Source of the DNA: Kordia zhangzhouensis | Lineage (GTDB): Bacteria; Bacteroidota; Bacteroidia; Flavobacteriales; Flavobacteriaceae | Direction of reading: 5' to 3' | Assembly: GCF_001005305.1 (NCBI RefSeq) | Contig: NZ_LBMH01000004.1 | Location: 372,001 to 436,000, forward strand | Length of the DNA: 64,000 nucleotides | Program-made: the position numbers and the translations under genes | In this document: positions 1,578-45,989 of the stretch, piece by piece | Layout of the letters: each line of letters begins with the position of its first letter | How positions within the stretch are numbered: the stretch's first letter is position 1 | Notes under the pieces: model-generated | Told to the model about the DNA's origin: nothing | What the model saw: only the letters and a program-made list of their open reading frames with translations | The model's database searches: none

Positions 1578-1623
1578 CTACCCTTTTGTGTAGCGAATCA
1601 TTCTGTACACAATATTAATTTTG
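1578..1623 (+). promoter_or_regulatory. Operator copy 1 and -7 element: promoter of the ThiF-like gene
   Basis: Palindrome CTACCCTTTTGTGTAG at 1578-1593 (one mismatch between the 6-base arms, TTTT spacer), followed by CGA. Exactly 22 nt later comes TAATTTTG at 1616-1623, a full match to the Bacteroidetes -7 consensus TAnnTTTG. The position expected for a -33 TTG holds CGAA instead, which suggests an activator-dependent promoter. The palindrome centre lies about 42 bases upstream of the likely transcription start (near 1627). The same arrangement recurs before the acyltransferase gene and the NRPS operon. The bound protein is inferred to be the LuxR-type regulator encoded at 2395-3153. Confidence 0.75.
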
Positions 1624-1639
1624 AATAAAAATCATCAAA

Positions 1640-2398
1640 ATGGAAGATAGATACTCCAGAAATAGAATCTACGTAACGCAAGAAGAACAAAAAATCATCA
1701 AAGAATATCCTATAATTTTAGGAGGTTCTGGTATTGGAAGTGCCATTGCTGAATGCGCTTTGCGATTAGGTTTTGAAAATATCACAATCATTGATGGAGA
1801 TCAAGTGGAAAAGTCAAACTTGAATCGCCAAAATTATACTGAAAATGATATTGGTGTAGACAAAACAGAGGCTATTAAGAAAAGATTATTGGCGATAAAT
1901 GCAAATGCTAATATAAAGGTACACAGTACGTTTTTAACAGTCGAGAACGCAGAAAGCTACATTAAAGGTCACAAAATTGCAATCAACGCTTTAGATTTTA
2001 CAACGGAAGTTCCTTTAATTTTTGATAAACTATGTCAAGAAAATAATATTCCTGTATTACATCCTTATAATCTAGGTTGGGGCGGATTAGTAACTGTCAT
2101 CACACCAAAAGGGTTGTTGTTGGACAGTATCAAGAAGACCGATGGAGGCGAAGATTTTAATGAGGTGAATATGGTAGAATACGCCTCAAATTATTTAAAG
2201 TTTTGGGGAACTCCTCACTTGTGGATTGATGAAATTATTCAAAAATACAAAGAAGAAAAAGAACAACTCCCACCACCACAATTATCAATTGCTTCGTGGA
2301 CTGTTGCCGCAATGTGTACGCACATAGCGTTTAATATAGCCACCGAAAAAGAGTATAAAAAATTCCCTGAATTCTATTTATCTACAATTCTAAACTAA
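1640..2398 (+). CDS. ThiF/MoeB-family E1-like adenylyltransferase
   Basis: A 252-residue protein with the Rossmann ATP-binding loop GGSGIG (residues 28-33), then IDGDQVEKSNLNRQ and the NDIGVDKTEA segment, all typical of the E1/ThiF/MoeB superfamily, which adenylates the C-terminal carboxylate of a small protein or of a peptide or other acid. It has only three scattered Cys residues and lacks the paired CxxC zinc motifs of classical ThiF and MoeB. The C-terminal half (HPYNLGWGG onward) is not one I can place. It has its own operator-type promoter, shared in design with the acyltransferase and NRPS promoters, so it is probably part of that regulon. Its stop codon overlaps the convergent regulator gene by 4 bases. 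The substrate is unknown; modification of a signal molecule or of the peptide product are both possible. Confidence 0.75.
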   Translation: MEDRYSRNRIYVTQEEQKIIKEYPIILGGSGIGSAIAECALRLGFENITIIDGDQVEKSNLNRQNYTENDIGVDKTEAIKKRLLAINANANIKVHSTFLTVENAESYIKGHKIAINALDFTTEVPLIFDKLCQENNIPVLHPYNLGWGGLVTVITPKGLLLDSIKKTDGGEDFNEVNMVEYASNYLKFWGTPHLWIDEIIQKYKEEKEQLPPPQLSIASWTVAAMCTHIAFNIATEKEYKKFPEFYLSTILN

Positions 2399-3153
2399 AT
2401 TAATTTATTATTCGTAGCATACGCAATCGCTTCCGAAATATTAACAACATCCAGCTTTTCGAAAAGTTTTCGTCGGTGAAACTTTACAGTATCGGGTGAT
2501 ACAAAAATGGATTCGGCGATTTCATTAATGGTATAACCTCTCGTAGAGAAGAGAAGAATTTCCTTTTCTCGATTGGTTAAGGTAATTTGCTCTGTTGTTT
2601 TCCAAAAATCACCTTCCAAATCGTATTTAAATATTTTATTATCTCCTTTTTTATAAATAGCGATATTTCCAGAATTTTGCTCAGCAGAAAGCGAAATAAT
2701 ACATAATGCTTTCCATATTTTTCCCTCATTAGTTAAAAACATAGGCGTCAATTTCTGATTAATCAAGATAGTTTTTCCTTCCTGGTTTTTTAAATGATAA
2801 TCATAAGAAATTGTGTAGTTTTTTCGTTCTTCAATAGGAATTCGCTCGTAAAACTCAAAGCCCGCTTCATTAATTTTTAACAACAAATTCAAGTCAGCTT
2901 CAATTACATATTTAAAGTAAAAAGCATACCCCATTTCTTGTACTTCTTCAGCGGTGTGACCACATAAAAATAATGGATTGTCAGATACGTATTCAAAACC
3001 TTTTTGTTGGTAGTCAATGATGTAGATGCTCTTATAAGTAGTTCTGGCAAAAGCTCTAATCGGTTCTAAATAGTTAGCAGTTTTCTGCTGATCGTTACTA
3101 GAAATATTGTTTACAGTATTTCTAAACGAAAAAAAGTCATTAACATCGCTCAT
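2395..3153 (-). CDS. PAS-domain LuxR-family transcriptional regulator
   Basis: A 252-residue protein. Residues about 35-150 look like a PAS sensor fold (GFEYVSDNPLFLCGHT near its start), not an acyl-homoserine-lactone domain. Residues about 190-252 form a LuxR/GerE helix-turn-helix: LTNREKEILLFSTRGYTINE, then IAESIFVSPDTVKFHRRKLF, with the expected LT-REKE, I-V-VKFH and K-L pattern. It should be a cytoplasmic DNA-binding activator that senses a small ligand through its PAS domain. There is no receiver domain, so it is not a response regulator. It is convergent with the ThiF-like gene and divergent from the acyltransferase gene. Four copies of a 16-bp palindrome near three promoters around it make it the obvious candidate to bind them; this is inference. 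The ATG at 3151-3153 fits the family. Confidence 0.9.
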   Translation of the reverse strand: MSDVNDFFSFRNTVNNISSNDQQKTANYLEPIRAFARTTYKSIYIIDYQQKGFEYVSDNPLFLCGHTAEEVQEMGYAFYFKYVIEADLNLLLKINEAGFEFYERIPIEERKNYTISYDYHLKNQEGKTILINQKLTPMFLTNEGKIWKALCIISLSAEQNSGNIAIYKKGDNKIFKYDLEGDFWKTTEQITLTNREKEILLFSTRGYTINEIAESIFVSPDTVKFHRRKLFEKLDVVNISEAIAYATNNKLI

Positions 3154-3187
3154 AGTAAAGTTTTTTACACAACTTTAAACATGCACA

Positions 3188-3212
3188 CTATTTTACAGTA
3201 ACCATAAAATAG
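3188..3212. promoter_or_regulatory. Inverted repeat upstream of the PAS-LuxR gene
   Basis: CTATTTTA (3188-3195) and TAAAATAG (3205-3212) form a perfect 8-bp inverted repeat around a 9-base spacer, 35 bases upstream of the regulator's start codon. A second perfect 14-base palindrome, AATCTATATAGATT, lies at 3227-3240. Both sit where the regulator's own promoter should be. They do not match the CTACnC palindrome, so if they bind a protein it is probably another one. AT-rich palindromes arise easily by chance here. Confidence 0.4.
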
Positions 3213-3240
3213 AATAATTCCAATTCAATCTATATAGATT

Positions 3241-3708
3241 AAACTGAATGCATTATTAAAGCATCATTTCCCTTGTGTCCCTTTTTTGGGTGTTTCCTAA
3301 TTATTTGTTTCGCTTTTTTAGGTTAAGTCTCTTCTAGTTTTTAGTTATTAAAAAATAAAATACAAGGAGTTAATGAACTCCAGCAATACTATTTAAGTAT
3401 CATCTATTCTTTTTTTCATGGTACAATAGATGTTAATACTCTACAAAAATGATAGATCAAATAGTCTTCACGTTATAAACATTTAATCAACTTCTTCAAA
3501 ATTCCAAAAAATAAGGTGAGAAATCGGAGGCATTCATCTCACTTAGAACTTCTCTAAAGAATCTCATTTTCACAAATATATACATTGATGTTTAGATAAA
3601 CAATTAAACATTTTATAAAAGAGCTAAAATTATCATAAATAGCTTATTAACAGATTTTTAACGTTTAAAAATCCTTGCTAAAAACTGCATCTTTTTGACC
3701 TTTTATTT
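3241..3708. other. Long intergenic stretch with no gene seen
   Basis: This is the main part of a 690-base gap between the divergent regulator and acyltransferase genes. No open frame of useful length and no tRNA- or rRNA-like segment is visible. It ends in a terminator on the + strand that has no + strand gene upstream of it, so a short non-coding transcript is possible. A TAnnTTTG box is not clearly present on the + strand in this stretch. Confidence 0.4.
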
Positions 3709-3732
3709 AAGCCCTTTTTAGGGCTTTTTTTT
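3709..3732 (+). terminator. Rho-independent terminator upstream of the acyltransferase promoter
   Basis: AAGCCC (3709-3714) and GGGCTT (3721-3726) pair around loop TTTTTA, followed by six more T (3727-3732). The T tract is on the + strand only, so it acts on rightward transcription. The nearest upstream gene reads leftward, so it either ends an unannotated rightward transcript or shields the following promoter from read-through. Confidence 0.75.
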
Positions 3733-3746
3733 GACAGGAGAACTAC

Positions 3747-3762
3747 CTACACTTTTGTGTAG
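3747..3762 (+). promoter_or_regulatory. Operator copy 2 (perfect palindrome), distal site of the acyltransferase promoter
   Basis: CTACACTTTTGTGTAG is a perfect inverted repeat with 6-base arms and a TTTT spacer. It sits 38 bp (centre to centre) upstream of copy 3 and has no -7 element at the 22-nt spacing seen for the other copies, so it looks like an auxiliary upstream site. With its flank it reads ACCTACACTTTTGTGTAG, one base different from the 18 bases at copy 1. Confidence 0.75.
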
Positions 3763-3784
3763 TTTTCACTATATCAGCACATTA

Positions 3785-3830
3785 CTACACTTTAGTGTAA
3801 CGAGATAGGGCGTCTTGCCAGATAGTTTTG
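3785..3830 (+). promoter_or_regulatory. Operator copy 3 and -7 element: promoter of the acyltransferase gene
   Basis: CTACACTTTAGTGTAA at 3785-3800 (5 of 6 arm positions paired), then CGA, then after exactly 22 nt TAGTTTTG at 3823-3830, a full TAnnTTTG match. The end of the palindrome is 47 nt from the ATG at 3848; the matching distance at the ThiF-like gene is 46 nt. The predicted start of transcription, near 3834, excludes the TTG at 3815 as the translation start. Confidence 0.75.
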
Positions 3831-3847
3831 AATCAAACTTTTTAACC

Positions 3848-4534
3848 ATGAAACTTGAAAGAAACTATCTCGAAAACTTACAAAAAGGTCAATTATTAGA
3901 CCTTGCAAAATTTATCGTAACAGAAAACTTTAAACATCATTCCGACAATGTTTTGCCACAGGATTATACGAATGATGTAAATTCAATTCGCGATGAAGAA
4001 ATTAAATACGCAGAAAACTCTCAAATTTTTGTTGTAAAAAATGAAGACAATGACATCACGGGAGCAATTAGAGTATTAAAGTGGAACTATTCTGATATAT
4101 TGCCAATTCAGAAAATGTTCGGAATCAACCCATTACTTGCAATTACAGACTATGATGTAAACGAAATTTTCCATATTGGACGATTTGCTATTCAAAAAGG
4201 ATCAAAAGATGTAAACCTTTTTAAAAAATTAATGGTGTGTGCTATTGCTCCAGTTTGTGCCAATAAAGGAAACATTGCATTTGCAGAAATTGATAGCAAA
4301 TTATTACGTGTTCTTAGACTTTTAGGAATCAAAGCTTCTGTTATAGGAGAGTCAATTGAATATTTAGGTTCTGAGACAATTCCTGTAGCTTTTACATACG
4401 AAGGATTGATCGATTTCTTCAATAAGAACAAATCATTAGTAGCTCCAGAAAAACTGACCAACAACTTAGTGTCTACAAACCTACCTGAAAGTGTAGTTTC
4501 AGAAGAAGTAACATACAACTACTCTTTAGTGTAG
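3848..4534 (+). CDS. LuxI/FeeM-like N-acyltransferase (putative autoinducer or N-acyl-amino-acid synthase)
   Basis: A 228-residue protein with the linear pattern of the GNAT-related LuxI/FeeM group: ITGAIRVLKW (beta strand with the G-x-I-R turn), then EIFHIGRFAI (compare the E-x-S-R-F region of LuxI), then LLRVLRLLGIKASVIGES followed by IEYLGSETIPV, matching the C-terminal G-x-G-x-x-x-Y-x-G region. Enzymes of this group move an acyl chain from acyl-ACP or acyl-CoA to an amine and release a diffusible N-acyl product. The open frame also has a TTG at 3815, but the -7 element at 3823 and the spacing both favour ATG 3848. Two operator copies precede it and a fourth overlaps its last codons. Family membership is by motif order only. 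It could instead be a GNAT acyltransferase that modifies the peptide. Confidence 0.6.
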   Translation: MKLERNYLENLQKGQLLDLAKFIVTENFKHHSDNVLPQDYTNDVNSIRDEEIKYAENSQIFVVKNEDNDITGAIRVLKWNYSDILPIQKMFGINPLLAITDYDVNEIFHIGRFAIQKGSKDVNLFKKLMVCAIAPVCANKGNIAFAEIDSKLLRVLRLLGIKASVIGESIEYLGSETIPVAFTYEGLIDFFNKNKSLVAPEKLTNNLVSTNLPESVVSEEVTYNYSLV

Positions 4535-4564
4535 CGACCACAAGCGCGTTAGCTTGTACATTTA
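4519..4564 (+). promoter_or_regulatory. Operator copy 4 and -7 element: probable promoter of the antiterminator/NRPS operon
   Basis: CTACTCTTTAGTGTAG at 4519-4534 (one arm mismatch) overlaps the last codons and stop of the acyltransferase gene and is followed by CGA. After exactly 22 nt comes TACATTTA at 4557-4564, matching TAnnTTTG at all but the last base. This is the same geometry as at the ThiF-like and acyltransferase promoters. Within the spacer, ACAAGC (4540-4545) and GCTTGT (4552-4557) form an inverted repeat that could act on transcripts reading through from upstream. Confidence 0.7.
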
Positions 4565-4570
4565 TATTAT

Positions 4571-4696
4571 CAATTAAAAAGCATACCCGAAGACCTTCAA
4601 AAGTCAATTTTGACGAAGGAATTCAAAATTATTTAATACTAACGAAAAAGCTTCATGGGACTGAGGGAAGCGAAGCTGTATCAAAAAACTAACACT
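4571..4696 (+). promoter_or_regulatory. Leader RNA of the NRPS operon with two hairpins
   Basis: If transcription starts near 4571, the leader to the antiterminator ATG is about 125 nt. It holds two possible stem-loops: CCTTC (4594-4598) with GAAGG (4615-4619) enclosing an inner GTCA/TGAC stem, and AGCTTC (4649-4654) with GAAGCT (4672-4677). Paralogues of NusG such as LoaP are known to act through RNA structure in the leader of their own operon, so these are candidate recruitment elements. Stability was not computed. Confidence 0.45.
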
Positions 4697-5218
4697 ATGA
4701 AAACTACTTCTAAATGGCATGTACTTTACGTAAACTACCGCTGGGAAAAGAAAGTTCACGAACGTATTCAAGAAGCAGGTGTAGAATCTTTTTTGCCACT
4801 TGCTAAAACTGTGAGAGTTTGGAGCGATCGCAAGAAAGTTCTTTTAGAGCCTTTGTTTAAATCGTATGTATTTGTAAACGTTAAATCGCCTATGGATTTC
4901 CATAAAGCATTATCTGTTGACGGAGCTTGCGCGTATGTGCAATTTGGAAGAGAATATGCTATAGTGAGAGATCACGAAATTGAACAGATTAAGCTCTTAG
5001 TGGGAGATGATGAAATATTAGATTTAACTGCCTGTACAGAATTGCCAGCTGTCGGCGAAGAGAGACGAATTATTTGCGGCGCTTTAGAAGGATTAAAATG
5101 TGAAGTGCTAAAAGCAAAAAATGCCAATAAAATTTTAGTTAGAATAGATTCCCTTCAACAAAACTTAGTTGCCACTATACCATCTTATTATTTAGATAAA
5201 AAAGCATTAACAGCATAA
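4697..5218 (+). CDS. NusG-like operon-specific transcription antiterminator (UpxY/LoaP type)
   Basis: A 173-residue protein starting KTTSKWHVLYVNYRWEKKV after the Met, the NGN-domain opening of NusG paralogues, followed by ESFLPLAKTVRVWSDRKK and PLFKSYVFV, and by a short KOW-like tail (CGALEGLKCEVLKAKN). Proteins of this kind bind RNA polymerase at one operon and let it read through pauses and terminators over tens of kilobases; UpxY members serve Bacteroides capsule operons and LoaP a Bacillus polyketide operon. Here it is the first gene before a synthetase operon of at least 59 kb, 13 bases ahead of the first NRPS gene. The frame opens at ATG 4655, but ATG 4697 places the conserved WHVLYV segment at the N-terminus as in the family, so I use 4697. 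Confidence 0.9.
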   Translation: MKTTSKWHVLYVNYRWEKKVHERIQEAGVESFLPLAKTVRVWSDRKKVLLEPLFKSYVFVNVKSPMDFHKALSVDGACAYVQFGREYAIVRDHEIEQIKLLVGDDEILDLTACTELPAVGEERRIICGALEGLKCEVLKAKNANKILVRIDSLQQNLVATIPSYYLDKKALTA

Positions 5219-14286: not shown

Positions 14287-15885
14287 ATGGAACAGCAAAA
14301 TTATTACTTAAAACTAAATGTAGCATTAGAAGCACTTATTGACAGATGGTATGCATGGTCGCACTTGGTTTCTCCTGCAACTGCAGCGATGAATATCAAA
14401 GAAAGACACTTAAAAATCATGCAGTCGTATATTAAAAGCCCAAAAACGCATGCAGCAGCCGTAAAAAGGCCAGAAATGTTAGGAGGTCCTTTTATTGATT
14501 ATGAAGGTGGAAGAGTAGATGAAATTAAAGATTTATATGAAGATACGATAGTAAAGCGTAAAAAAATGCTCGAATTATACGAGTCTATCCACGAATTAAA
14601 TACAATGTTGCAAAAAAATGCAATCGGATATTCGTTGGATCCATTGTATAAAGAAGTTCCAGAATCATTACAAGGAATGGTTGAATTATATTATGATTTG
14701 AACAACCGACCAAATTTCCGCTTTTTCGAATCTTTACTATACAATAGCGAGTTTTATGACGAATCTACACAATCAGTATCATTACAATTAGTTGATGCTG
14801 ATGATGCACGTTCATTCGTATTGAGTACGCCACGTTTGGATGATGAAAATTTAATTCATCTTGATATACGATTTAAGGATGCATTGATTGATGAATTGTT
14901 CAGAATGAAAAGAACGCCAGGAAGCTATACAGACATCATGAAAAAGCTGAACGTAAAGCCAGAGCAAGAAGAATTATTCAAATCCTTTTTTACGACAGAA
15001 GCTCCAAAGAAATACGAACGATATACAGGAAGCGGAATTAGAACACGTTACTTTGGTCATGCTTGTGTATTAGTAGAAACGAGTGAAACTTCTATTTTGG
15101 TGGATCCTGTAATTAGTTATGATGGATACGAAACAGATGTAAATCGCTACACAATTAATGATTTACCAGAAGAAATCGATTATGTATTAATCACGCACAA
15201 TCATCAAGATCACGTATTACTTGAAACCTTATTGCAGCTTCGTCATAGCATCAAACAAATTGTAGTACCATCATCAGGAAAAGGTGATGTACAAGATCCG
15301 TCGTTAAAATTAATGTTCAACGCAATTGGATTTGACAATGTGATTGAATTAGACGATATGGAAACTATCACTTTAGATCGTTGTACCATTACAGGATTAC
15401 CATTCATTGGAGAACATTCAGATATTGATATCCGTTCAAAATTATGTTACCATGTAGAGCTTCATAACAAGTTCAGAGTGCTTTTCGCTGCCGATTCGTG
15501 CAATGTTGAGCCAAAAGTATACGAGCGCATTCATCAATTGGTAGGAGACATCGATGTATTATTCTTAGGAATGGAATGTGATGGAGCTCCATTAAGTTGG
15601 TTGTATGGTCCATTAATGTTTGAAAAACTACCTCGTGAAATGGATCAATCAAGAAGACTCGCAGGATGCGATTACAAACAAGGAGAAGCTTTAGTAGACA
15701 TTTTTAGTCCTAAAAATGTCTTTGTATATGCTATGGGATTAGAACCATGGTTAGTTTTTATCAGTTCATTAAAATATACAGATGAATCAAAACCAATTGT
15801 AGAATCAAACAGATTGGTAGACGAATGTCGTAGCAGAGGAATCGATGCAGAACGATTATTCGGAGAAAAAACAATAGAATACTAA
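14287..15885 (+). CDS. CmlA-like diiron beta-hydroxylase (metallo-beta-lactamase fold)
   Basis: 532 residues, the same length I recall for CmlA of chloramphenicol biosynthesis. The C-terminal half is a metallo-beta-lactamase fold with THNHQDH (His304, His306, Asp308, His309), and Glu376 in GEHSD where hydrolytic lactamase-fold enzymes usually carry His; Asp403 lies in FAADS. One residue of offset aligns these ligands with those of CmlA, which uses a carboxylate-bridged diiron site to beta-hydroxylate an aromatic amino acid held on a PCP. The N-terminal 240 residues fit the CmlA N-terminal domain. The gene lies directly before the module with an aromatic (Phe/Tyr-like) specificity code, the natural substrate here. 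A plain hydrolase is the main alternative but is less likely given the Glu ligand and the two-domain length. Confidence 0.82.
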   Translation: MEQQNYYLKLNVALEALIDRWYAWSHLVSPATAAMNIKERHLKIMQSYIKSPKTHAAAVKRPEMLGGPFIDYEGGRVDEIKDLYEDTIVKRKKMLELYESIHELNTMLQKNAIGYSLDPLYKEVPESLQGMVELYYDLNNRPNFRFFESLLYNSEFYDESTQSVSLQLVDADDARSFVLSTPRLDDENLIHLDIRFKDALIDELFRMKRTPGSYTDIMKKLNVKPEQEELFKSFFTTEAPKKYERYTGSGIRTRYFGHACVLVETSETSILVDPVISYDGYETDVNRYTINDLPEEIDYVLITHNHQDHVLLETLLQLRHSIKQIVVPSSGKGDVQDPSLKLMFNAIGFDNVIELDDMETITLDRCTITGLPFIGEHSDIDIRSKLCYHVELHNKFRVLFAADSCNVEPKVYERIHQLVGDIDVLFLGMECDGAPLSWLYGPLMFEKLPREMDQSRRLAGCDYKQGEALVDIFSPKNVFVYAMGLEPWLVFISSLKYTDESKPIVESNRLVDECRSRGIDAERLFGEKTIEY

Positions 15886-22531: not shown

Positions 22532-25500
22532 ATGAAAAAAGAAATTAGAAAAAAAGATATTGCCATTGTTGGATTTGCAGGAAGATTTCACGACTCAAAA
22601 AATGTTCGTGAATTCTGGAATAATCTGGCAGAAGGGAAAGAATTATTAAAACGTTTCAATGAAGAAGAGCTCTTACAAAGAGGAGTGGATGCTTCTACAT
22701 TAAACAATCCAGATTTTGTACCTGTTGAATCTATAGTAGAAAAAGCGGAAAGCTTTGATTACTCATTTTTTGGATATACCAAAGATGAAGCAAATGCTAT
22801 GGATCCACAAATTCGAATGATGCACGAATTGGTTTGGACAGCTTTAGAAGATGCAGGATATAATCCGGATACTTTCACAGGTAAAGTTGGTGCATTTCTT
22901 TCAGCTTCAGAACATACCAATTGGTTGGCACATACAGCGACGGTCAATTCTGAAAATGTAAATCCTTTCTTCTTATCACAATTGAGAAACAAAGATTTTA
23001 TCAGTTCGTTAATTTCTTACAGCTTAAACCTAAAAGGACCGAGTTATCATACGGCGACTGCGTGTTCTAGTTCGTTGGTTTCTACACACATTGCATGTAG
23101 AAGTTTATTATTAAGAGAGTGTTCCGTTGCTTTGGCAGGAGGTGTTAGTTTAATGACGCAACCAAGTACAGGATATTTATATCAAGAAGGAATGATTGTT
23201 GCAAAAGATGGTCATTGCCGTGCTTTCGATGCAGAAGCCTCAGGGTGTATCAAAGGAAATGGAGGAGGAGTTGTGGTGCTTAAGCGCATGGAAGATGCTA
23301 TCAGAGACAAAGATCATATCTATGCAATTATTCGTGGAACGGCTACCAATAATGATGGAAAAGAAAAAGCAGGATATACTGCGCCAAGTGTTGATGGACA
23401 AGCAAACTGTATCAAACTAGCACAAAATTTTGGAGGTGTACCGTACGAGTCAATTTCATACATTGAAACACATGGAACAGCTACACGTTTAGGAGATCCA
23501 ATTGAAATTTCTGCATTAAATAAAGCCTTCAATAACGATACAAATCATACTTGTGCGATAGGCTCTTTAAAATCAAACATGGGACATTTGGATGTTGCTG
23601 CTGGTGTTGCAGGTTTAATAAAAGCTTCATTAGCATTAAAGAACAAAAAAATTCCTGCATCATTAAACTATACTTCACCCAATCCATTAATCGATTTTAG
23701 TGCAGGACCTTTTAGTGTGAATACTGAATTGACCAATTGGGAACGAATCAACGAAGAACCATTACGTGCAGGCGTAAGCAGTTTCGGAATTGGAGGAACC
23801 AATGCACATGCTGTAATTGAAGAATTTTTACCAGAAAAAACAGCTATTTCAAAAAAAGAGTTTCAAATATTTCCAATTGCTGCCAAAAGTGAGTCTGCTT
23901 TGGAAAATTATCAAAGAGAACTCACTGAATTTATACAAAAAACAGAGGAAAATATAGCAGATGTTGCATACACTCAATCGGTTGGGCGTAAAGGATTTGC
24001 AAACAGAACTTTCTTAATCGCAAACACTACCGATAGCACATTGGTAGAAGCATTACAAGAAATTAAAGTTGCAAAAGAAGATGCCTCAACAGTATTTATG
24101 TTTCCTGGTCAAGGAAATCAATATTATGGAATGCTCAAAGATGTGTATGAAAAAGAGCCTTTTATCAAAGAAATAATAGATTACGGATTAGATACTTTAC
24201 AACAATTAACAGGAGAAAATTATCGTGAAATAATTGGTTACAAAGAAGGAGCTGATCGTGAGTTAATCAATAATACAAAATATACACAACCTATTCTTTT
24301 CTTGGTAGAATACGCCTTGGCAAAATATCTAATGCATTTAGGAGTGCAACCTTCGCAAATGATTGGGCACAGTTTAGGTGAATATGTTGCAGCCTGTATT
24401 GCAGGTGTATTTTCTTTTGAAGATGGATTGAAAATCTTAGTAAAAAGAGCATTGTTGATGAGCCAATTGGAAGAAGGAACAATGTTGGCAATAGGTGTTT
24501 CTGTAGAAGAAATCCAATCCTTACTTACTCGAGGAATTGACGTAGCTGCGGTAAATACTAGCAATACTTGCATCGTTTCAGGAGACAACGACCACATTAA
24601 CATTTTCAAGGAAATTTTAGAAGACAGAGAAATTCCTTTCTCTGAACTCAAAACATCACATGCGTTTCATTCATACATGATGGACGATATGTTGGAAGAA
24701 TTTGAAGCAGAATTAAAAGCAATATCATTGCAAGTTCCTACAATTTCATTCATCTCTAATTTAACAGGGAAAGAAATTACAACAGAAGAAGCAACAGCAA
24801 CAAATTATTGGGTACAACATTTACGTGAAACAGTACGATTTGCAGAAGGCTTGAACGCTATCAAAATACCAGAAACAAGTATTTTTGTGGAGGTTGGACC
24901 AGGAAAATCCATGCGCTCGTTCTGTAAGCAAAACCAACGAACTAGAAATAGTGAAACAGTTGGTACGATGCGTCATATAAAAGAAACACAATCTGATACA
25001 TTAGAACTAACAAAAGCTCTTGGAAATTTATGGTGCAATGGTATTCAAATTGATTGGGAACGTTATTATGAGCATGAAACACGTTGTAAAGTTTCAATAC
25101 CAACATATCAATTTGATTATTACGCTTTTGATTTTACTGTAGATCCTTTTTCAGACATATTCTCAAAAAAGTTTTCAGAAAAAACAGTATATCCTTACAA
25201 AGATTGGTTTTATCATAAAAGTTGGAAAAAATCGGTTCTTACTACAGAAAACCAATTTGATGCAAAAGATGGAATATTATTATTTACCGAAAAAAATGCA
25301 CTGTCAAATGTCTTAAAAAAGAATTTCATCACAGAAAAACAACATGTGTATGAAGTATACAAAGGCAAGCGTTTTGAAAATTTTGACGAATTACAATTTG
25401 GAATTCTTCCTAACGAAGAAACAGAATATACCCAACTTTTTAACACCTTGGCTGCGCAAAATATTACTTGCGGGCATATAGTGTATAATTGGAACTTCAA

Positions 25501-26944
25501 AGGAAAATCACAGGAAGCAATTACCAACGGATTCAAACCGTTATTGCATGTTTGCAAAGCATTGATTAACTATCAACCAGAAGTTCGAAAAAAATTGACC
25601 ATTGTCACAGATTTTGGAAACAATGTTATTGGAACTGAACAACAAAACATAATTGCTACAACGGTCTCAACAATTGGAAGTGTATTAGCGCAAGAAAATG
25701 CAAATATTGTTACACAAACAATTGATGTTGATATAGATAAAACTTGCCCAGAACTTCTAAAATCTATTTGTGATGAGCTTAATTACAATAAAATTCAAAG
25801 CAATGTAGCTTATCGAAATGGTCAGCGATGGGTTGATTTTTATGAAAATCTACCAATTGTAGAAAAGCCAACTACAAATATTAAGGCAGAAAATGTTTAT
25901 CTCATTACAGGCGGTTTAGGATTTTTAGGAAGAACTCTAGCAGCACATTTAACGCAAAAGTTTGATGCGAAAGTAGTGTTAACAGGAAGACAAGAATTGC
26001 CAGAAAAGGCACAATGGGATTCGTATGAACTAAATGATGACTCTGCAGTAGCGAAAAAAGTAAGAATACTCCAAGAGCTAACAAAAGAAGGAAAACAAGT
26101 ACACTACTATGCTGTTGATTTAACCAATGAAGAAGCGCTTGCGGAAACCATTGCAAAAATAGAAACAAATGTTGGTGCGATTTCTGGAATCATTCATGCA
26201 GCAGGAAATATTGACAATCAAACATTCAAATTCATTGAAAATATTGATGATGAAAGTATCCAAGCTCAGTTTAATCCAAAAATACAAGCCACACAAAATA
26301 TAGCTAATGTATTTGAAAATAAGCCATTAGATTTTGTTTGGTTAGCGTCTAGTTTGGCATCAATATTAGGAGGATTATCCTATGGAGCGTATGCAACTGC
26401 CAATCGTTTTATGGATGCATTTGTACAAGATCGTACAAACTGGATTGCTGTGAATTTGGACGGACTTGGAAAAGGAGCTATGGAAACGTACCAAATTGTA
26501 GATGTATTTGAACAAACAGTACATTACAAATCGCTTCGTCAATGTGTAGTGTCAATGAAAAATCCAAACGCAATTCTTGAAGCACAGTTCAAATCGAAGG
26601 CAATTGAAGAAACCATTGAACGTAACGTAAAAACAGCAGCAAAGAAAGCGAACTATGTAGCTCCTCAAACGGAAACGGAAACAAGTTTAGCTAAAATTTG
26701 GGAAGACTTTTTCGGGTACGATCATATCAGTATAACAGAAAATTTCTTTGAATTAGGCGGTGATTCCTTAAAAGCAATGACGCTTATAAAACGAATTCAC
26801 AAGCATTATAATGTTGAAATAAGTTTACTAGACTTTTTCTCAAAACCAACAATTCAAGAGCTATCAGCTGAAATTGATATTACCCTGCAAATCAGCAAAC
26901 CAACCATAGAAAACGAAAAAAGAACCAACGTAATAAAAATATAA
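22532..26944 (+). CDS. Type I polyketide synthase module: KS-AT-KR-ACP
   Basis: 1470 residues. The ketosynthase triad is Cys178 (TATACSSSL), His314 (ETHGTAT) and His352 (SNMGHLD). The acyltransferase has GHSLGEY with Ser614 and HAFH at 710-713, the pattern of malonyl-CoA-specific AT domains. The ketoreductase has an NADPH loop TGGLGFLG at 1126-1133 and an active-site Tyr1287 in YATAN; no dehydratase or enoylreductase is seen. The ACP has LGGDS with Ser1412. One round should add two carbons to the Asn-bearing chain and leave a beta-hydroxyl, giving a statine-like gamma-amino-beta-hydroxy acid unit. There is no TubC docking domain at its N-terminus. Its tail (EKRTNVIKI) precedes the docking-domain NRPS 4 bases downstream. 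KR stereotype cannot be read safely. Confidence 0.93.
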   Translation: MKKEIRKKDIAIVGFAGRFHDSKNVREFWNNLAEGKELLKRFNEEELLQRGVDASTLNNPDFVPVESIVEKAESFDYSFFGYTKDEANAMDPQIRMMHELVWTALEDAGYNPDTFTGKVGAFLSASEHTNWLAHTATVNSENVNPFFLSQLRNKDFISSLISYSLNLKGPSYHTATACSSSLVSTHIACRSLLLRECSVALAGGVSLMTQPSTGYLYQEGMIVAKDGHCRAFDAEASGCIKGNGGGVVVLKRMEDAIRDKDHIYAIIRGTATNNDGKEKAGYTAPSVDGQANCIKLAQNFGGVPYESISYIETHGTATRLGDPIEISALNKAFNNDTNHTCAIGSLKSNMGHLDVAAGVAGLIKASLALKNKKIPASLNYTSPNPLIDFSAGPFSVNTELTNWERINEEPLRAGVSSFGIGGTNAHAVIEEFLPEKTAISKKEFQIFPIAAKSESALENYQRELTEFIQKTEENIADVAYTQSVGRKGFANRTFLIANTTDSTLVEALQEIKVAKEDASTVFMFPGQGNQYYGMLKDVYEKEPFIKEIIDYGLDTLQQLTGENYREIIGYKEGADRELINNTKYTQPILFLVEYALAKYLMHLGVQPSQMIGHSLGEYVAACIAGVFSFEDGLKILVKRALLMSQLEEGTMLAIGVSVEEIQSLLTRGIDVAAVNTSNTCIVSGDNDHINIFKEILEDREIPFSELKTSHAFHSYMMDDMLEEFEAELKAISLQVPTISFISNLTGKEITTEEATATNYWVQHLRETVRFAEGLNAIKIPETSIFVEVGPGKSMRSFCKQNQRTRNSETVGTMRHIKETQSDTLELTKALGNLWCNGIQIDWERYYEHETRCKVSIPTYQFDYYAFDFTVDPFSDIFSKKFSEKTVYPYKDWFYHKSWKKSVLTTENQFDAKDGILLFTEKNALSNVLKKNFITEKQHVYEVYKGKRFENFDELQFGILPNEETEYTQLFNTLAAQNITCGHIVYNWNFKGKSQEAITNGFKPLLHVCKALINYQPEVRKKLTIVTDFGNNVIGTEQQNIIATTVSTIGSVLAQENANIVTQTIDVDIDKTCPELLKSICDELNYNKIQSNVAYRNGQRWVDFYENLPIVEKPTTNIKAENVYLITGGLGFLGRTLAAHLTQKFDAKVVLTGRQELPEKAQWDSYELNDDSAVAKKVRILQELTKEGKQVHYYAVDLTNEEALAETIAKIETNVGAISGIIHAAGNIDNQTFKFIENIDDESIQAQFNPKIQATQNIANVFENKPLDFVWLASSLASILGGLSYGAYATANRFMDAFVQDRTNWIAVNLDGLGKGAMETYQIVDVFEQTVHYKSLRQCVVSMKNPNAILEAQFKSKAIEETIERNVKTAAKKANYVAPQTETETSLAKIWEDFFGYDHISITENFFELGGDSLKAMTLIKRIHKHYNVEISLLDFFSKPTIQELSAEIDITLQISKPTIENEKRTNVIKI

Positions 26945-39674: not shown

Positions 39675-41033
39675 ATGATTAAACCATTAATTCATTCGAT
39701 GGCTGTGTGTCCTGATATGACGAAAACATATCCGAAAATTACACATGGAAAAGGGATTTACCTTTATGACGACAAAGGTAAGCGATATTTAGACGGTTCT
39801 TCAGGTTCTTCTTCTGTGTCCAATATTGGTCATGGTAGAGAAGAAATGGTGGAGATTATGGCTGATCAAATATCAAAAGTAACCGTATTACCAACACATG
39901 CTTTTAATAGCGATGTAGTAGAAAGTTATTTAAAAGAATTGACAGATTTTGCTCCAGAAGGATTCACCAAAGCGTGGACTGTAATGAGTGGAACAGAAGC
40001 TGTAGAAAATGCAATCAAACTAGCCTTACAATATCATCAATTACGAGGTGATAATACCCGCTATAAAATCATTTCTCGTTGGAATACTTATCACGGAAAC
40101 TCAGTATTTACACTAGATGTAGGCGGAATGAAAATGCGTCGCGGATTATATGAGCAATGGTTGCACAACTTCCCACACATTTCACCAGCATACAGTTACC
40201 GTCGACCAGCGCACTTAAACGAAGCGGAATATGTACAAGAACTATTAGAAGAGTTTGAAAATACAATCATAAAAACAGGGCCAGAAACGGTTGCTGCCTT
40301 TATTGCAGAACCAGTTATTGCTGCTGCAATGGGAGCAGTACCACCGCCACCAAACTATTTTAAAGGAATCAAGTATATCTGTGAAAAATACGGAATTCTG
40401 TACATCTCTGATGAAATTCTTTCTGGTTTTGGAAGAACTGGAGAAAACTTTGGAATCAACAACTTCGGGATTACACCAGATATTATAGCAGCAGGAAAAG
40501 GAATTAGCGGAGGGTATTTCCCATTATCAGCTGTAATTGCTTCTGACAAAGTGGTGCAACCACTCGTAGACACCAAAACGGCTTTCTTAGGCGGACATAC
40601 ATTTGCTTGTAACCCAATGGGAGCACGAGTAGGAAGTAAAGTCTTAGAAATCATGGAACGCGAACAACTGGTTGCTCGATCAAAACGCATGGGTACATTA
40701 TTCATGGAAAAACTAAAATCATTATACGAGTTTGACATAGTAGGTGATGTACGCGGTGTAGGATTGCAATGTGGAATAGAACTCGTTCAAGACAGAATAA
40801 CAAAAACACCATTCCCAGCAAGTATGAAACTATCTAAAGTAATTGGTGAAAAAGCAATTCAAAAAGGAGTGGTTTTATACCCTGGAAGCGGATCTGTAAA
40901 TGGAGTAGATGGCGATCATATTTTGGTAACGCCACCACTCACTATCAATGAAGAACAAATAGACGAAATCGTAGATGTAATGAGAGACTGCTTGAAAGAA
41001 GTGGTTTCTGAATCTAAAAAATTAACAGCATAA
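39675..41033 (+). CDS. Class III PLP-dependent aminotransferase
   Basis: 452 residues of the acetylornithine/omega-amino-acid aminotransferase class: MSGTEAVENAIKLA near residue 107, SDEILSGFGRTG with cofactor-binding Asp246, and the PLP lysine Lys275 in AAGKGISGG. Members move an amino group between a terminal (omega) amine or aldehyde and a keto acid. It sits one base upstream of the NRPS whose specificity residues resemble the 2,4-diaminobutyrate code, so a role in making Dab from aspartate semialdehyde is the simplest reading. The sequence does not settle this: other omega-transaminases look alike, and it might act on a bound chain. Cytosolic, with no signal peptide. Confidence 0.88.
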   Translation: MIKPLIHSMAVCPDMTKTYPKITHGKGIYLYDDKGKRYLDGSSGSSSVSNIGHGREEMVEIMADQISKVTVLPTHAFNSDVVESYLKELTDFAPEGFTKAWTVMSGTEAVENAIKLALQYHQLRGDNTRYKIISRWNTYHGNSVFTLDVGGMKMRRGLYEQWLHNFPHISPAYSYRRPAHLNEAEYVQELLEEFENTIIKTGPETVAAFIAEPVIAAAMGAVPPPPNYFKGIKYICEKYGILYISDEILSGFGRTGENFGINNFGITPDIIAAGKGISGGYFPLSAVIASDKVVQPLVDTKTAFLGGHTFACNPMGARVGSKVLEIMEREQLVARSKRMGTLFMEKLKSLYEFDIVGDVRGVGLQCGIELVQDRITKTPFPASMKLSKVIGEKAIQKGVVLYPGSGSVNGVDGDHILVTPPLTINEEQIDEIVDVMRDCLKEVVSESKKLTA

Positions 41034-44000: not shown

Positions 44001-45000
44001 TTATTACAATATTCATCATATCATTGGAGATGGTTGGTCTACAAAAGTATTGGTAGATGATGTATTACATTATTACAAACTATTTCAAGGAGAAACGACT
44101 GAAACAGTACCAGAACTACCAATTCAATATAAAGAGTATGTGAGTTGGGAACAACAACAAATTACTAGTGGGAAATTTAAAAAACACCAATCATATTGGA
44201 CACAAAAATTTTCTGGAAAACTAACAACCATCACATTTCCTGAACAGAAAAACCGCCCATTAACACGTACATACGAAGGTCATGCGCTCGGAATTTACCT
44301 TTCAGCAGAACGATCGGAAGCACTTAAAACATTTTGTGATGCAAATGGAGGAAGTCTATTCATGGGAATGCTAGCCGCATGGAATATATTAATTCATAAA
44401 TACACGAATGTAACAGATATCATCATAGGAACACCAGTTGTAGGAAGAGAACATCAGAACTTGAAAAATCAAATTGGGTTCTATATGAATACACTAGCGC
44501 TTCGAAATACTCTCGATCCAAATGATGATTTCAAAACAGTTTTCGAAAATGTAAAAAAGAATACGCTTGAAAGTTATGATCATCAAATGTATCCTTTTGA
44601 TGCAATTGTTGATGCAGTAGGCGTGCAAACAGAGCGCAATCGAAATCCGTTGTACGATATCATGTTTTCTTTCCATAACATCGAAGAAAGAGAAAAACCA
44701 ACCAATGAATCTATTGGGAATACAGTAATGGATTTAGGCTACGTAAAAGCAAAAATTGACTTATTAATCAATGCTATGGAAGTAGGCGACCAATTGTACT
44801 TGGAGATTAATTACGATAGTGAATTATTTGAGATTGAAATGATGAAACGTTTACTCAAAAACTACGATCAATTACTCTCAGAAGTACTCTCAAAACCTAC
44901 AGAAAGTATACAAAATATTAGCTATCAAGCAGAGTCGATTAAACAATTCAAAAAGAACAATCTTTTAAAACTAAAAAGTATAAAAGCCAACACGATATGA
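41035..45000 (+). CDS. NRPS, module 9 plus detached C domain: partial C-A-PCP-C, diaminobutyrate-like
   Basis: 1321 residues. Residues 1-235 correspond to the C-terminal lobe of a C domain only (from EEFW onward, no HHxxxDG), cut at the same point as the NRPS at 5232. Then A (YTSGSTGKPKG at 409; YGATE at 553 in place of YGPTE), PCP (LGGHS, Ser805) and a complete C domain (HHIIGDG at 994) ending the protein. Specificity residues D-I-W-E-I-N-T-D-D-K resemble the published Dab code DIWELTADDK at 7 of 10 positions. The C domain needed for this module is the last domain of the 34832 protein. The C domain at its own end serves the next NRPS. The C-terminal tail is basic, unlike the acidic tails elsewhere. 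Its stop overlaps the hydroxylase start (ATGA). Confidence 0.92.
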   Translation: MDREGILKQARTEEFWLNNMQEIAALNASSFFGGIQLKEEKGNTCLKIELNSENVAKVKELCNHSEVLVYNYFLNVISKLLIDYKEVPFFLSPLSQFPQFKDSNKIFFIKPVINSEENFKQVFSSQKAKIVQQLSNALSWDEIDSLIEDKSTLNNLSQFGFVVNSKEVATELEAHVHTLFQIVLTEKNPYLKIQLNGEMYAPRVLELFGENFNTLVNEVLSKTYEPLAQLQSSSSTEQAILQEINLPRTYFSLEKNTLECIDEQATLYGNKVAVQHNNETITYGNLVAKSNQIARFLVERYEAKKDMLFGVMMPRSINMVKAILGVWKAGSAYVPVGTELPDDNLLQIIENSQFKAIITDDETVVQQLKRVAEHVPVIHLKKDTSIIETYATTSLPISINDNDLAYVIYTSGSTGKPKGVMIEHVGMLNHIGAKLTEMNIHKDSIVAQNAPHTFDISIWQLFAPLVIGATGVIYDNETIIDIKEFVAKLEEDQITILELVPSYLLEMLYHIEQQDKNCQLALTILILNAETLTKSMVERWLQLYPKIPIVNTYGATEVSDDTSHYIMKEVPDSYSVPVMTYPIQNFEVHIVDENFKKVPIGVQGEILLAGICVGRGYFNDPERTKKAYLKGPIKGVTNCERVYKTGDLGRFMPDGTMEFVGRNDNQVKISGHRIELDAIENITAGIEGIKNAKAVAHTDKQFIALYYLADKVIEKSIIEQTILQKLPKYMLPSAIVHMTNFPLTTNGKINKKALPDPLQYLQRDVASYVAPETEVEKKIAVIWQEILNVETVGLNDHFFELGGHSLKLMRLKNEYHKEFSVNIKIKEFFENPTLSAHAQLIDSAENDTYVEIKPIPKADSYPVSNGQKRLWIVSQIPNASSAYNMPYKVYLDGNYNVVNLEKAIFATIDRHETLRTVFTINEKGELRQVILAPEALNFTITRLDFREIKDVHGAVDDYISHDTHQTFDLENGPLFRATLIQTSDDSYVFYYNIHHIIGDGWSTKVLVDDVLHYYKLFQGETTETVPELPIQYKEYVSWEQQQITSGKFKKHQSYWTQKFSGKLTTITFPEQKNRPLTRTYEGHALGIYLSAERSEALKTFCDANGGSLFMGMLAAWNILIHKYTNVTDIIIGTPVVGREHQNLKNQIGFYMNTLALRNTLDPNDDFKTVFENVKKNTLESYDHQMYPFDAIVDAVGVQTERNRNPLYDIMFSFHNIEEREKPTNESIGNTVMDLGYVKAKIDLLINAMEVGDQLYLEINYDSELFEIEMMKRLLKNYDQLLSEVLSKPTESIQNISYQAESIKQFKKNNLLKLKSIKANTI

Positions 45001-45989
45001 AAAATCAATTGTTAAAATTAAAGAACATGAGCGCTGTACAAACTATGAGCGCCGAAGTGGTGAAAACCTCTTTTCTAGATAATGGATTGAATTTTCCATT
45101 AGTGTTAGAATCCAACGGAAGTGATGTAATTCTTGAACAATGGATGGTTGACAACCGAACTGATTTTGAGCAAAAGCTCTTAAAATACGGAGGAATTCTA
45201 TGTAGAGGTTTCCAAATTGATACGGTAGAGAAATTTCAAAGTTTGATGGATAAATTTCCAAACGAATTATTGGATTATGCGTTTAGATCGTCTCCACGAT
45301 TTGAAATTACCAACAATGTATATGTTTCTACCACCTATCCACAAGATGAAATCATCAACATGCACAGTGAAAGCTCGTATGCACCAACTCATCCAAGTCG
45401 TATTGTGTTTTGTTGCATAATTCCTGCTGAAGAAAATGGACAAACACCAATAGCAGACAATCGGTTAATTCTCAATCACATGAGTGATGAGTTGAAACAG
45501 AAATTTACAGAAAAAGGCGTGCAATACAGACGTTACTTAAACAGTTTCATGGGATTAGGTTGGCAAGAAGTGTTTCAAACGGAAGACAAAGCTACTGTAG
45601 AAGCTGAATGCATTAAAAATGGAATGAATTATACTTGGGTAAGTGACAACGAATTAGTGCTTACGTGGACAAAAAAAGCCATTTGGGAACATCCAGTTAC
45701 TGGAGAATTGGCATGGTTTAATCATAGCTTATTCTTTAACAAGTATATGTTGCCTGAATCTATTCTCAATGCAGTAGAATCTGATGATCAACTACCTAAC
45801 AATACATTCTTTGGTGATGGAACGCCAATTTCAAAAGCGGAAATAGAAGAAATCAAATACGCATACGAAAAAGCAACTATCATGTTTCCTTGGGAAAAAG
45901 GAGATGTACTGTTCTTAGACAATATGTTAGCTTCTCACGGAAGAAACTCATACAAAGGAGAACGAAAAATCATCGTTTCGATGTCCTAA
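44997..45989 (+). CDS. SyrP-like Fe(II)/2-oxoglutarate-dependent beta-hydroxylase
   Basis: 330 residues of the TauD/SyrP dioxygenase family. Iron ligands are His123 and Glu125 (NMHSESSY) and His314 (ASHGRN), with Arg323 (GERKI) to bind 2-oxoglutarate. SyrP hydroxylates the beta-carbon of aspartate held on an NRPS carrier protein. The acidic ligand Glu125 is present, so this is a hydroxylase and not a halogenase of the SyrB2 kind, which has a small residue there. The gene overlaps the preceding stop by ATGA and is followed by an NRPS that activates Asn/Asp and starts with a catalytically degenerate C domain. That pairing matches the interface-domain partners described for siderophore beta-hydroxyaspartate enzymes. 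Most likely substrate: PCP-bound Asn or Asp of module 10. Confidence 0.87.
   Translation: MKNQLLKLKNMSAVQTMSAEVVKTSFLDNGLNFPLVLESNGSDVILEQWMVDNRTDFEQKLLKYGGILCRGFQIDTVEKFQSLMDKFPNELLDYAFRSSPRFEITNNVYVSTTYPQDEIINMHSESSYAPTHPSRIVFCCIIPAEENGQTPIADNRLILNHMSDELKQKFTEKGVQYRRYLNSFMGLGWQEVFQTEDKATVEAECIKNGMNYTWVSDNELVLTWTKKAIWEHPVTGELAWFNHSLFFNKYMLPESILNAVESDDQLPNNTFFGDGTPISKAEIEEIKYAYEKATIMFPWEKGDVLFLDNMLASHGRNSYKGERKIIVSMS

Follow-up and report, generated by a model that had tools for sequence, protein, structure and literature searches.

What switches on the large biosynthetic operon of this Kordia zhangzhouensis locus, and could the small acyltransferase gene in front of it supply the signal? The DNA analysed here, called the window, is the whole stretch of 64,000 nucleotides (contig NZ_LBMH01000004.1, positions 372,001 to 436,000), which belongs to a genome of 4.03 Mb (contig C33 in the analysis). 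Near its beginning, copies of a short palindrome lie among the genes for a ThiF-like enzyme, a LuxR-type regulator and an acyltransferase, ahead of a nonribosomal peptide synthetase (NRPS) operon. The original prediction, made from the letters alone, had proposed three promoters (P1, P2 and P3) activated from these palindromes by the neighbouring LuxR-type protein. The reading favoured here, with a probability of roughly 0.7, is an autoinducing class II activator cassette, in which a PAS-LuxR regulator would act at the operators, the acyltransferase would make the signal, and P3 would switch the biosynthetic operon.

Predicted operators and promoters of the cassette

Four palindromes are present as predicted on the forward strand (copies 1 to 4 at 1578-1593, 3747-3762, 3785-3800 and 4519-4534), and nowhere else in the genome is CTACNCTTTWGTGTA matched exactly. 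Three more places match with one mismatch, and none of these is followed after 22 nt by a perfect -7 box. Copies 1, 3 and 4 represent the proximal operators CTACCCTTTTGTGTAG of P1, CTACACTTTAGTGTAA of P2 and CTACTCTTTAGTGTAG of P3, and exactly 22 nt after them stand the -7 boxes TAATTTTG (1616-1623), TAGTTTTG (3823-3830) and TACATTTA (4557-4564), respectively. Such an agreement of three out of four sites on one spacing is unlikely by chance (p about 5e-8 to 5e-6 from local base rates). The lux box of class II LuxR promoters is located at -42.5. When the -7 box is set at positions -12 to -5, following the mapping in F. psychrophilum (PMC9723704), transcription is predicted to start at 1628, 3835 and 4569, and all three proximal palindromes are centred at -42.5, which bears out the class II position proposed earlier.

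The boxes TAATTTTG and TAGTTTTG fit the TAnnTTTG consensus of Bacteroidota primary-sigma promoters (PMC9723704, PMC7366714), and TACATTTA of P3 is one base off. The TTTG that is a feature of such promoters at about -33 is found at none of P1, P2 and P3, nor does any TTG occur 15-25 nt before the box, so the predicted lack of a -33 element holds. In F. johnsoniae data, likewise, a -33 motif was not identified (PMC7366714). Copy 2, which precedes copy 3 by 38 bp, serves as the distal operator of P2. There is also a fifth copy, CTACCTGAAAGTGTAG (4481-4496, forward strand), weaker than the other four and situated within the acyltransferase gene; it lies at the same distance of 38 bp upstream of copy 4 and forms the degenerate distal operator of P3. 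The TAG of the proximal P3 operator is at once the stop codon of the acyltransferase gene. The predicted CGA after the site does follow copies 1, 3 and 4 of the window, but relatives do not keep it, and a conserved CGA flank was dropped as part of the site.

Loci with LuxR and acyltransferase genes were compared in Kordia, Aquimarina, Flavobacterium, Tenacibaculum and a second family of the order, and a footprint set of 50 loci with 143 sites was obtained after removal of near-duplicates. A TANNTTTR box lies exactly 22 nt after the site in 84 of the 143 cases, and once each at 21 and 23 nt, with a background rate of the pattern of 0.00165 per position. For another 41 of the 143 sites the box is found at 60 nt, these being the copies 38 bp upstream. 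The distance from site to site is 38 bp in 40 pairs, 39 bp in three and 37 bp in one, and operators in tandem at a distance of 38 bp are part of the design. Compared pair by pair, sites are 75-90% and boxes 76-85% identical, against 31-33% for the spacer; since rows were chosen by their site and box patterns, the identity values of these two are partly built in, whereas the spacing distribution is not. As the relatives are not independent, the comparative case consists of the contrast between the spacer and the site and box, and not of a p-value. The sites share the consensus CTAC-N8-GTAG around a centre that varies (TTTT, TTTA or AAAA), and the operator is thus an imperfect palindrome.

Over these loci, P1 stands before thiF in 22, P2 before the acyltransferase gene or a LuxR-divergent gene in 43, and P3 before the next operon in 19, which upholds the earlier assignment of the three promoters to the ThiF-like gene, the acyltransferase gene and the antiterminator/NRPS operon. 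In most loci with P3, its site covers the final codons of the acyltransferase gene and ends in the TAG stop. Five loci (L056, L057, L058, L064 and L153) retain the site despite an earlier acyltransferase stop; the constraint on P3 therefore acts on the DNA, and coding constraint is ruled out as the origin of the site.

A scan of this and related genomes did not find the motif scattered at random. Among the full-model matches listed for genomes of the genus, those with no or one mismatch sit at the cassette, and in the regulator-less genomes of the genus no such match is found among those listed. A genome-wide regulon was also considered and rejected, as strict matches lie at the cassette only and looser ones are no commoner than those of a reversed-pattern control.

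Terminator-like hairpins with T runs are located at 1305-1335 and 3707-3736, immediately 5' of the P1 and P2 regions, where they would insulate the regulated promoters. Elsewhere in the same genome, unlinked to the cassette, a degenerate operator CTAAACTTTAGTGTAA is followed after 22 nt by TAGCTTTC and then by an open reading frame for a 59-residue double-glycine peptide (L005 1501-1748, G000:C2:93683). A similar weak site precedes the orthologue in genome G005 (L215), which has the regulator, and is absent in G004 and G006; this peptide gene is a possible unlinked fourth target.

The PAS-LuxR regulator and its probable recognition of the operator

The regulator gene (2395-3153, reverse strand) encodes a protein with a C-terminal GerE helix-turn-helix (PF00196, 56 bits with a cut-off of 23.5). 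Its AlphaFold2 model (predicted local distance difference test, pLDDT, 86) shows an N-terminal PAS domain ahead of the GerE domain. Among solved structures it comes closest to 3clo, which is a LuxR-type protein of Bacteroides, and to VqmA, a quorum receptor of Vibrio, with PAS domains next. The PAS domain would be the part that senses a ligand. The proposal that this protein is the binder gains support from co-occurrence across the order, from phylogenetic footprinting and from covariation of helix and operator, and the protein very probably does use these sites.

Among 346 genomes of the order, 39 have the regulator family and 22 have the acyltransferase, every one of these 22 being among the 39 (Fisher p about 2e-24); the two genes are adjacent in all 22. 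Operators accompany nearly all close relatives of the regulator. Where a second-family locus has the regulator and lacks the acyltransferase, the operator, the 22 nt and the box are in most cases retained, upstream of the LuxR-divergent transcript. Acyltransferase-free loci that keep operator and spacing include L074, L157-L161 and L172.

Of 59 loci, 55 have Asp as residue 221 of the recognition helix, and with it go the operator bases C4/G13 in 52 of 61 scored sites. Loci with Ser (L075, L174-L178) or Ala (L141) in its place have an operator of the form CTAT or CTAA ... ATAG with the 22-nt spacing unchanged, and a paralogue of 39% identity that retains Asp (L179) also retains CTAC. The covariation is a strong but not final argument that these are the binding sites of the regulator. 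No perfect operator-plus-box was found for family members whose helix reads KYYRR (L165-L168, L173) or for remote PAS-LuxR homologues (L181, L183-L185).

In the other family, a second regulator clade with Ser221 (L174-L178, L182) has the operator CTATACRAAAGTATAG, 22 nt and then TATTTTTA, and no acyltransferase lies nearby in the locus examined for Ser221 (L075). Genome G360 carries three paralogous acyltransferase-LuxR cassettes (L139, L140 and L141), each acyltransferase being beside its own LuxR paralogue. Both the recognition helix and the operators are altered in the third (L141), and the three cassettes together are a natural experiment on specificity for signal and DNA.

The acyltransferase and the case for a signal

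The acyltransferase gene (3848-4534, forward strand) is the candidate for the signal synthase. Its product is modelled as a GNAT fold (pLDDT 82), and structure comparison gives Z scores of 14.5 with FeeM, 14.2 with TofI, 14.1 with BjaI and 14.0 with LasI. The N-acyl-homoserine lactone (AHL) synthases TofI, BjaI, LasI and RpaI fall within Z 13.7-14.2, and the best Foldseek matches are TofI and BjaI. By sequence, FeeM is the only recurrent Pfam match, a weak one, in 6 of 12 acyltransferase relatives, and the profile of the exosortase-associated acyltransferase (exosort_acyl) matches below its cut-off. A profile search of the sequences of solved structures gave no match even at E 10, and the link came from the fold comparison alone. 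The enzyme thus looks like a LuxI/FeeM enzyme in its predicted fold, a likeness that does not imply membership of either family. The closest named match, 83% identical, comes from a Kordia metagenome-assembled genome. No acyltransferase of this kind was found on plasmids in PLSDB, and a phylum sample of 395 genomes yielded only one short, marginal match outside Flavobacteriales.

The genes that follow the cassette are highly variable. UpxY and NRPS genes come after P3 in the window and in four other loci (L055, L056, L063, L064). Lanthipeptide genes occur in others, namely LanB/LanC in L143 and LanC in L153 and L059. Radical S-adenosylmethionine (SAM) genes are found in L139 and, together with a C39 exporter, in L062. 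Further loci (e.g. L071) hold clusters of AraC-like, Crp-like and C39-exporter genes, and TonB and outer membrane protein genes are also seen. Double-glycine precursor-like peptides often stand directly after P3. Because the downstream genes differ among loci, the constant part of the cassette is regulatory. A fixed regulator and acyltransferase before variable chemistry is what a signalling cassette would predict, and a tailoring enzyme would not.

The promoter logic is well supported, and the sequence itself shows the sites, their spacing and conservation, the pairing of regulator and acyltransferase and the covariation of recognition helix and operator. Binding to the sites, an activating and not a repressing role, the positions of the transcription starts and the acyltransferase product as the ligand are inferred. 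A PAS-LuxR dimer at -42.5 would replace the missing -33 element and recruit RNA polymerase to a -7 box (TAnnTTTR) that stands alone, and a second dimer at -80.5 would assist at P2 and P3. P2 would drive the LuxI/FeeM-like acyltransferase, and the acyl signal that this enzyme makes, which might be an N-acyl amino acid or a related amide, would bind the PAS domain and give positive feedback. P3 would then turn on the adjacent biosynthetic operon; in the window, where the transcript would be about 55 kb long, that operon also comes with a UpxY antiterminator of its own. P1 would supply the ThiF-like enzyme, which may modify the signal.

Several findings weigh against this signalling scheme. Ordinary GNATs reach Z 13.2, only 1-2 Z lower than the best matches, so the structural distinction is modest. 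The FeeM profile PF21926 scores 17.7 bits, below its cut-off of 27. PF00765, the LuxI AHL synthase family, does not match the acyltransferase and has no match genome-wide at E<=1, and assignment as an AHL synthase by Pfam was rejected for lack of that match. The PAS call comes from the predicted fold, as no PAS Pfam model matched the regulator by sequence, and the covariation of helix and operator amounts to two evolutionary switches only. Moreover, some loci keep LuxR and operator without the acyltransferase, which means that the regulator can act with another partner signal or with none. These acyltransferase-free loci, together with the absence of a curated family match to AHL synthases and the fact that acyl amino acids of FeeM-type enzymes can be end products, suit a different account, in which the promoter part is right and the regulation is of the ordinary cluster-situated kind, with no signalling between cells. 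The acyltransferase would then make a building block or tailoring group of the product, and the PAS domain would sense a redox, metabolite or envelope signal. This account is a tentative possibility, opposed by the association of the same acyltransferase with unrelated chemistries (NRPS, lanthipeptides, radical-SAM and C39-exported peptides) and by its place beside LuxR and under a LuxR operator, as expected of a signal synthase. The balance tips slightly towards the acyltransferase product being the signal of the PAS-LuxR protein.

It is unlikely that the LuxR protein binds as a repressor, or that another conserved DNA-binding protein occupies the sites. AraC-like and Crp-like genes do lie downstream in some loci, but they are missing from many, including the window locus, and the operator bases vary with the LuxR recognition helix; the -42.5 position without a -33 element suits activation. 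Least probable by far is that the sites are non-functional AT-rich palindromes copied along with the locus by chance and shared ancestry. The loci are indeed related by descent, and the 3-mismatch pattern is as frequent genome-wide as the reversed control. Nevertheless, site, spacing and box hold while the spacer diverges, strict matches are restricted to the cassette, and the P3 site persists in loci whose coding frame stops before it.

Compared with LuxI/LuxR quorum sensing by AHL, the autoinducing cassette shares the adjacency of receptor and synthase-like genes (22 of 22 genomes), a receptor operator before the synthase-like gene, with the palindrome conserved at -42.5 from the predicted start, an acyltransferase fold nearest to AHL synthases and FeeM, and control over neighbouring biosynthetic genes. 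It differs in having a PAS sensor instead of an autoinducer-binding domain, an acyltransferase without a PF00765 match, a Bacteroidota -7 promoter, a 16-bp CTAC-N8-GTAG operator instead of a 20-bp lux box, tandem operators 38 bp apart and a ThiF partner. VqmA, the Vibrio PAS-GerE receptor for 3,5-dimethylpyrazin-2-ol (DPO), has the same domain order and predicted fold, but the identity is about 17%, and phylum and targets are different; to our knowledge, VqmA has no adjacent dedicated GNAT synthase. FeeM-type synthases of long-chain N-acyl amino acids are among the best structure matches of the acyltransferase, which stays under the Pfam cut-off and, unlike them, is linked to a LuxR regulator. 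As in LuxR solos, part of the regulator family has no synthase gene while the operators are conserved; however, solos have an autoinducer-binding domain (PMC4338825), whereas the regulators here have PAS and divergent target promoters.

An open-literature search turned up no account of the cassette, and one may exist elsewhere, as subscription papers were mostly outside it; likewise, no LuxI/LuxR-type gene pair was found described for Bacteroidota in the searchable literature. AHL production has been reported in the Bacteroidota member Tenacibaculum maritimum, according to the title of Romero 2010 as cited in PMC5852596. In Kordia, Tenacibaculum and Flavobacterium, which can be cultured, the cassette provides concrete candidates for a synthase, a receptor and an operator. 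It stands before differing clusters of peptide-antibiotic type in many relatives and may be an undescribed system of cell-to-cell signalling. The odds are evenly poised on the broader proposal of a quorum sensing native to Bacteroidota, with a PAS-LuxR receptor, a LuxI/FeeM-like acyltransferase, an undescribed acyl signal and a portable cassette that activates the adjacent peptide or NRPS cluster. For a Bacteroidota promoter, the activator-to-promoter geometry derived from sequence is unusually clear and gives a ready reporter design. Additionally, the operator, 22 nt and TAnnTTTR mark lanthipeptide, radical-SAM and NRPS clusters and thus serve as a handle for genome mining, which may let silent clusters be switched on.

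Downstream genes and the leader RNA

The ThiF/E1-like adenylyltransferase gene under P1 (1640-2398, forward strand) is recognised by Pfam ThiF with 114 bits. It is an optional member of the cassette, absent beside LuxR in several loci. The first gene of the P3 operon (4697-5218, forward strand) encodes an antiterminator of the UpxY family, RfaH/NusG-like (NCBIfam NF033644, 126.5 bits with a cut-off of 100).

The P3 leader contains an RNA element (4651-4677, forward strand) of two small hairpins with a AUGUGACU-like loop, in which compensatory changes are seen among UpxY-type loci. It has no Rfam match. In 60 genomes, the leader pattern gave 23 matches compared with one for the reversed-pattern control, mostly 20-90 nt upstream of a upxY gene. 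The element is likely to be the loading site of the UpxY antiterminator. LoaP requires an RNA of comparable kind, the dfn hairpin, and the present case resembles the UpxY/RfaH/LoaP systems in that UpxY comes first in a long operon and the leader RNA is placed like dfn (PMC12691694). Here, however, the element consists of two small hairpins with a AUGUGACU loop and not of a UNCG hairpin. By analogy, it is plausible as the Flavobacteriaceae UpxY counterpart of the dfn hairpin. The element also occurs in L053-L058, L063 and L064, and in about a dozen other upxY leaders (L188-L208).

Downstream of P3 and upxY, the open reading frames of the NRPS and polyketide synthase (PKS) operon extend over 5232-60257 on the forward strand, with the same order of UpxY and NRPS in L063 and L064. 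Read by eye from the translations, a phosphopantetheinyl transferase gene (655-1284) lies just upstream of P1, and the NRPS operon also holds a PKS-like gene (22532-26944) and genes for a metallo-beta-lactamase (MBL)-fold-like protein (14287-15885), an aminotransferase-like protein (39675-41033) and a dioxygenase-like protein (44997-45989).

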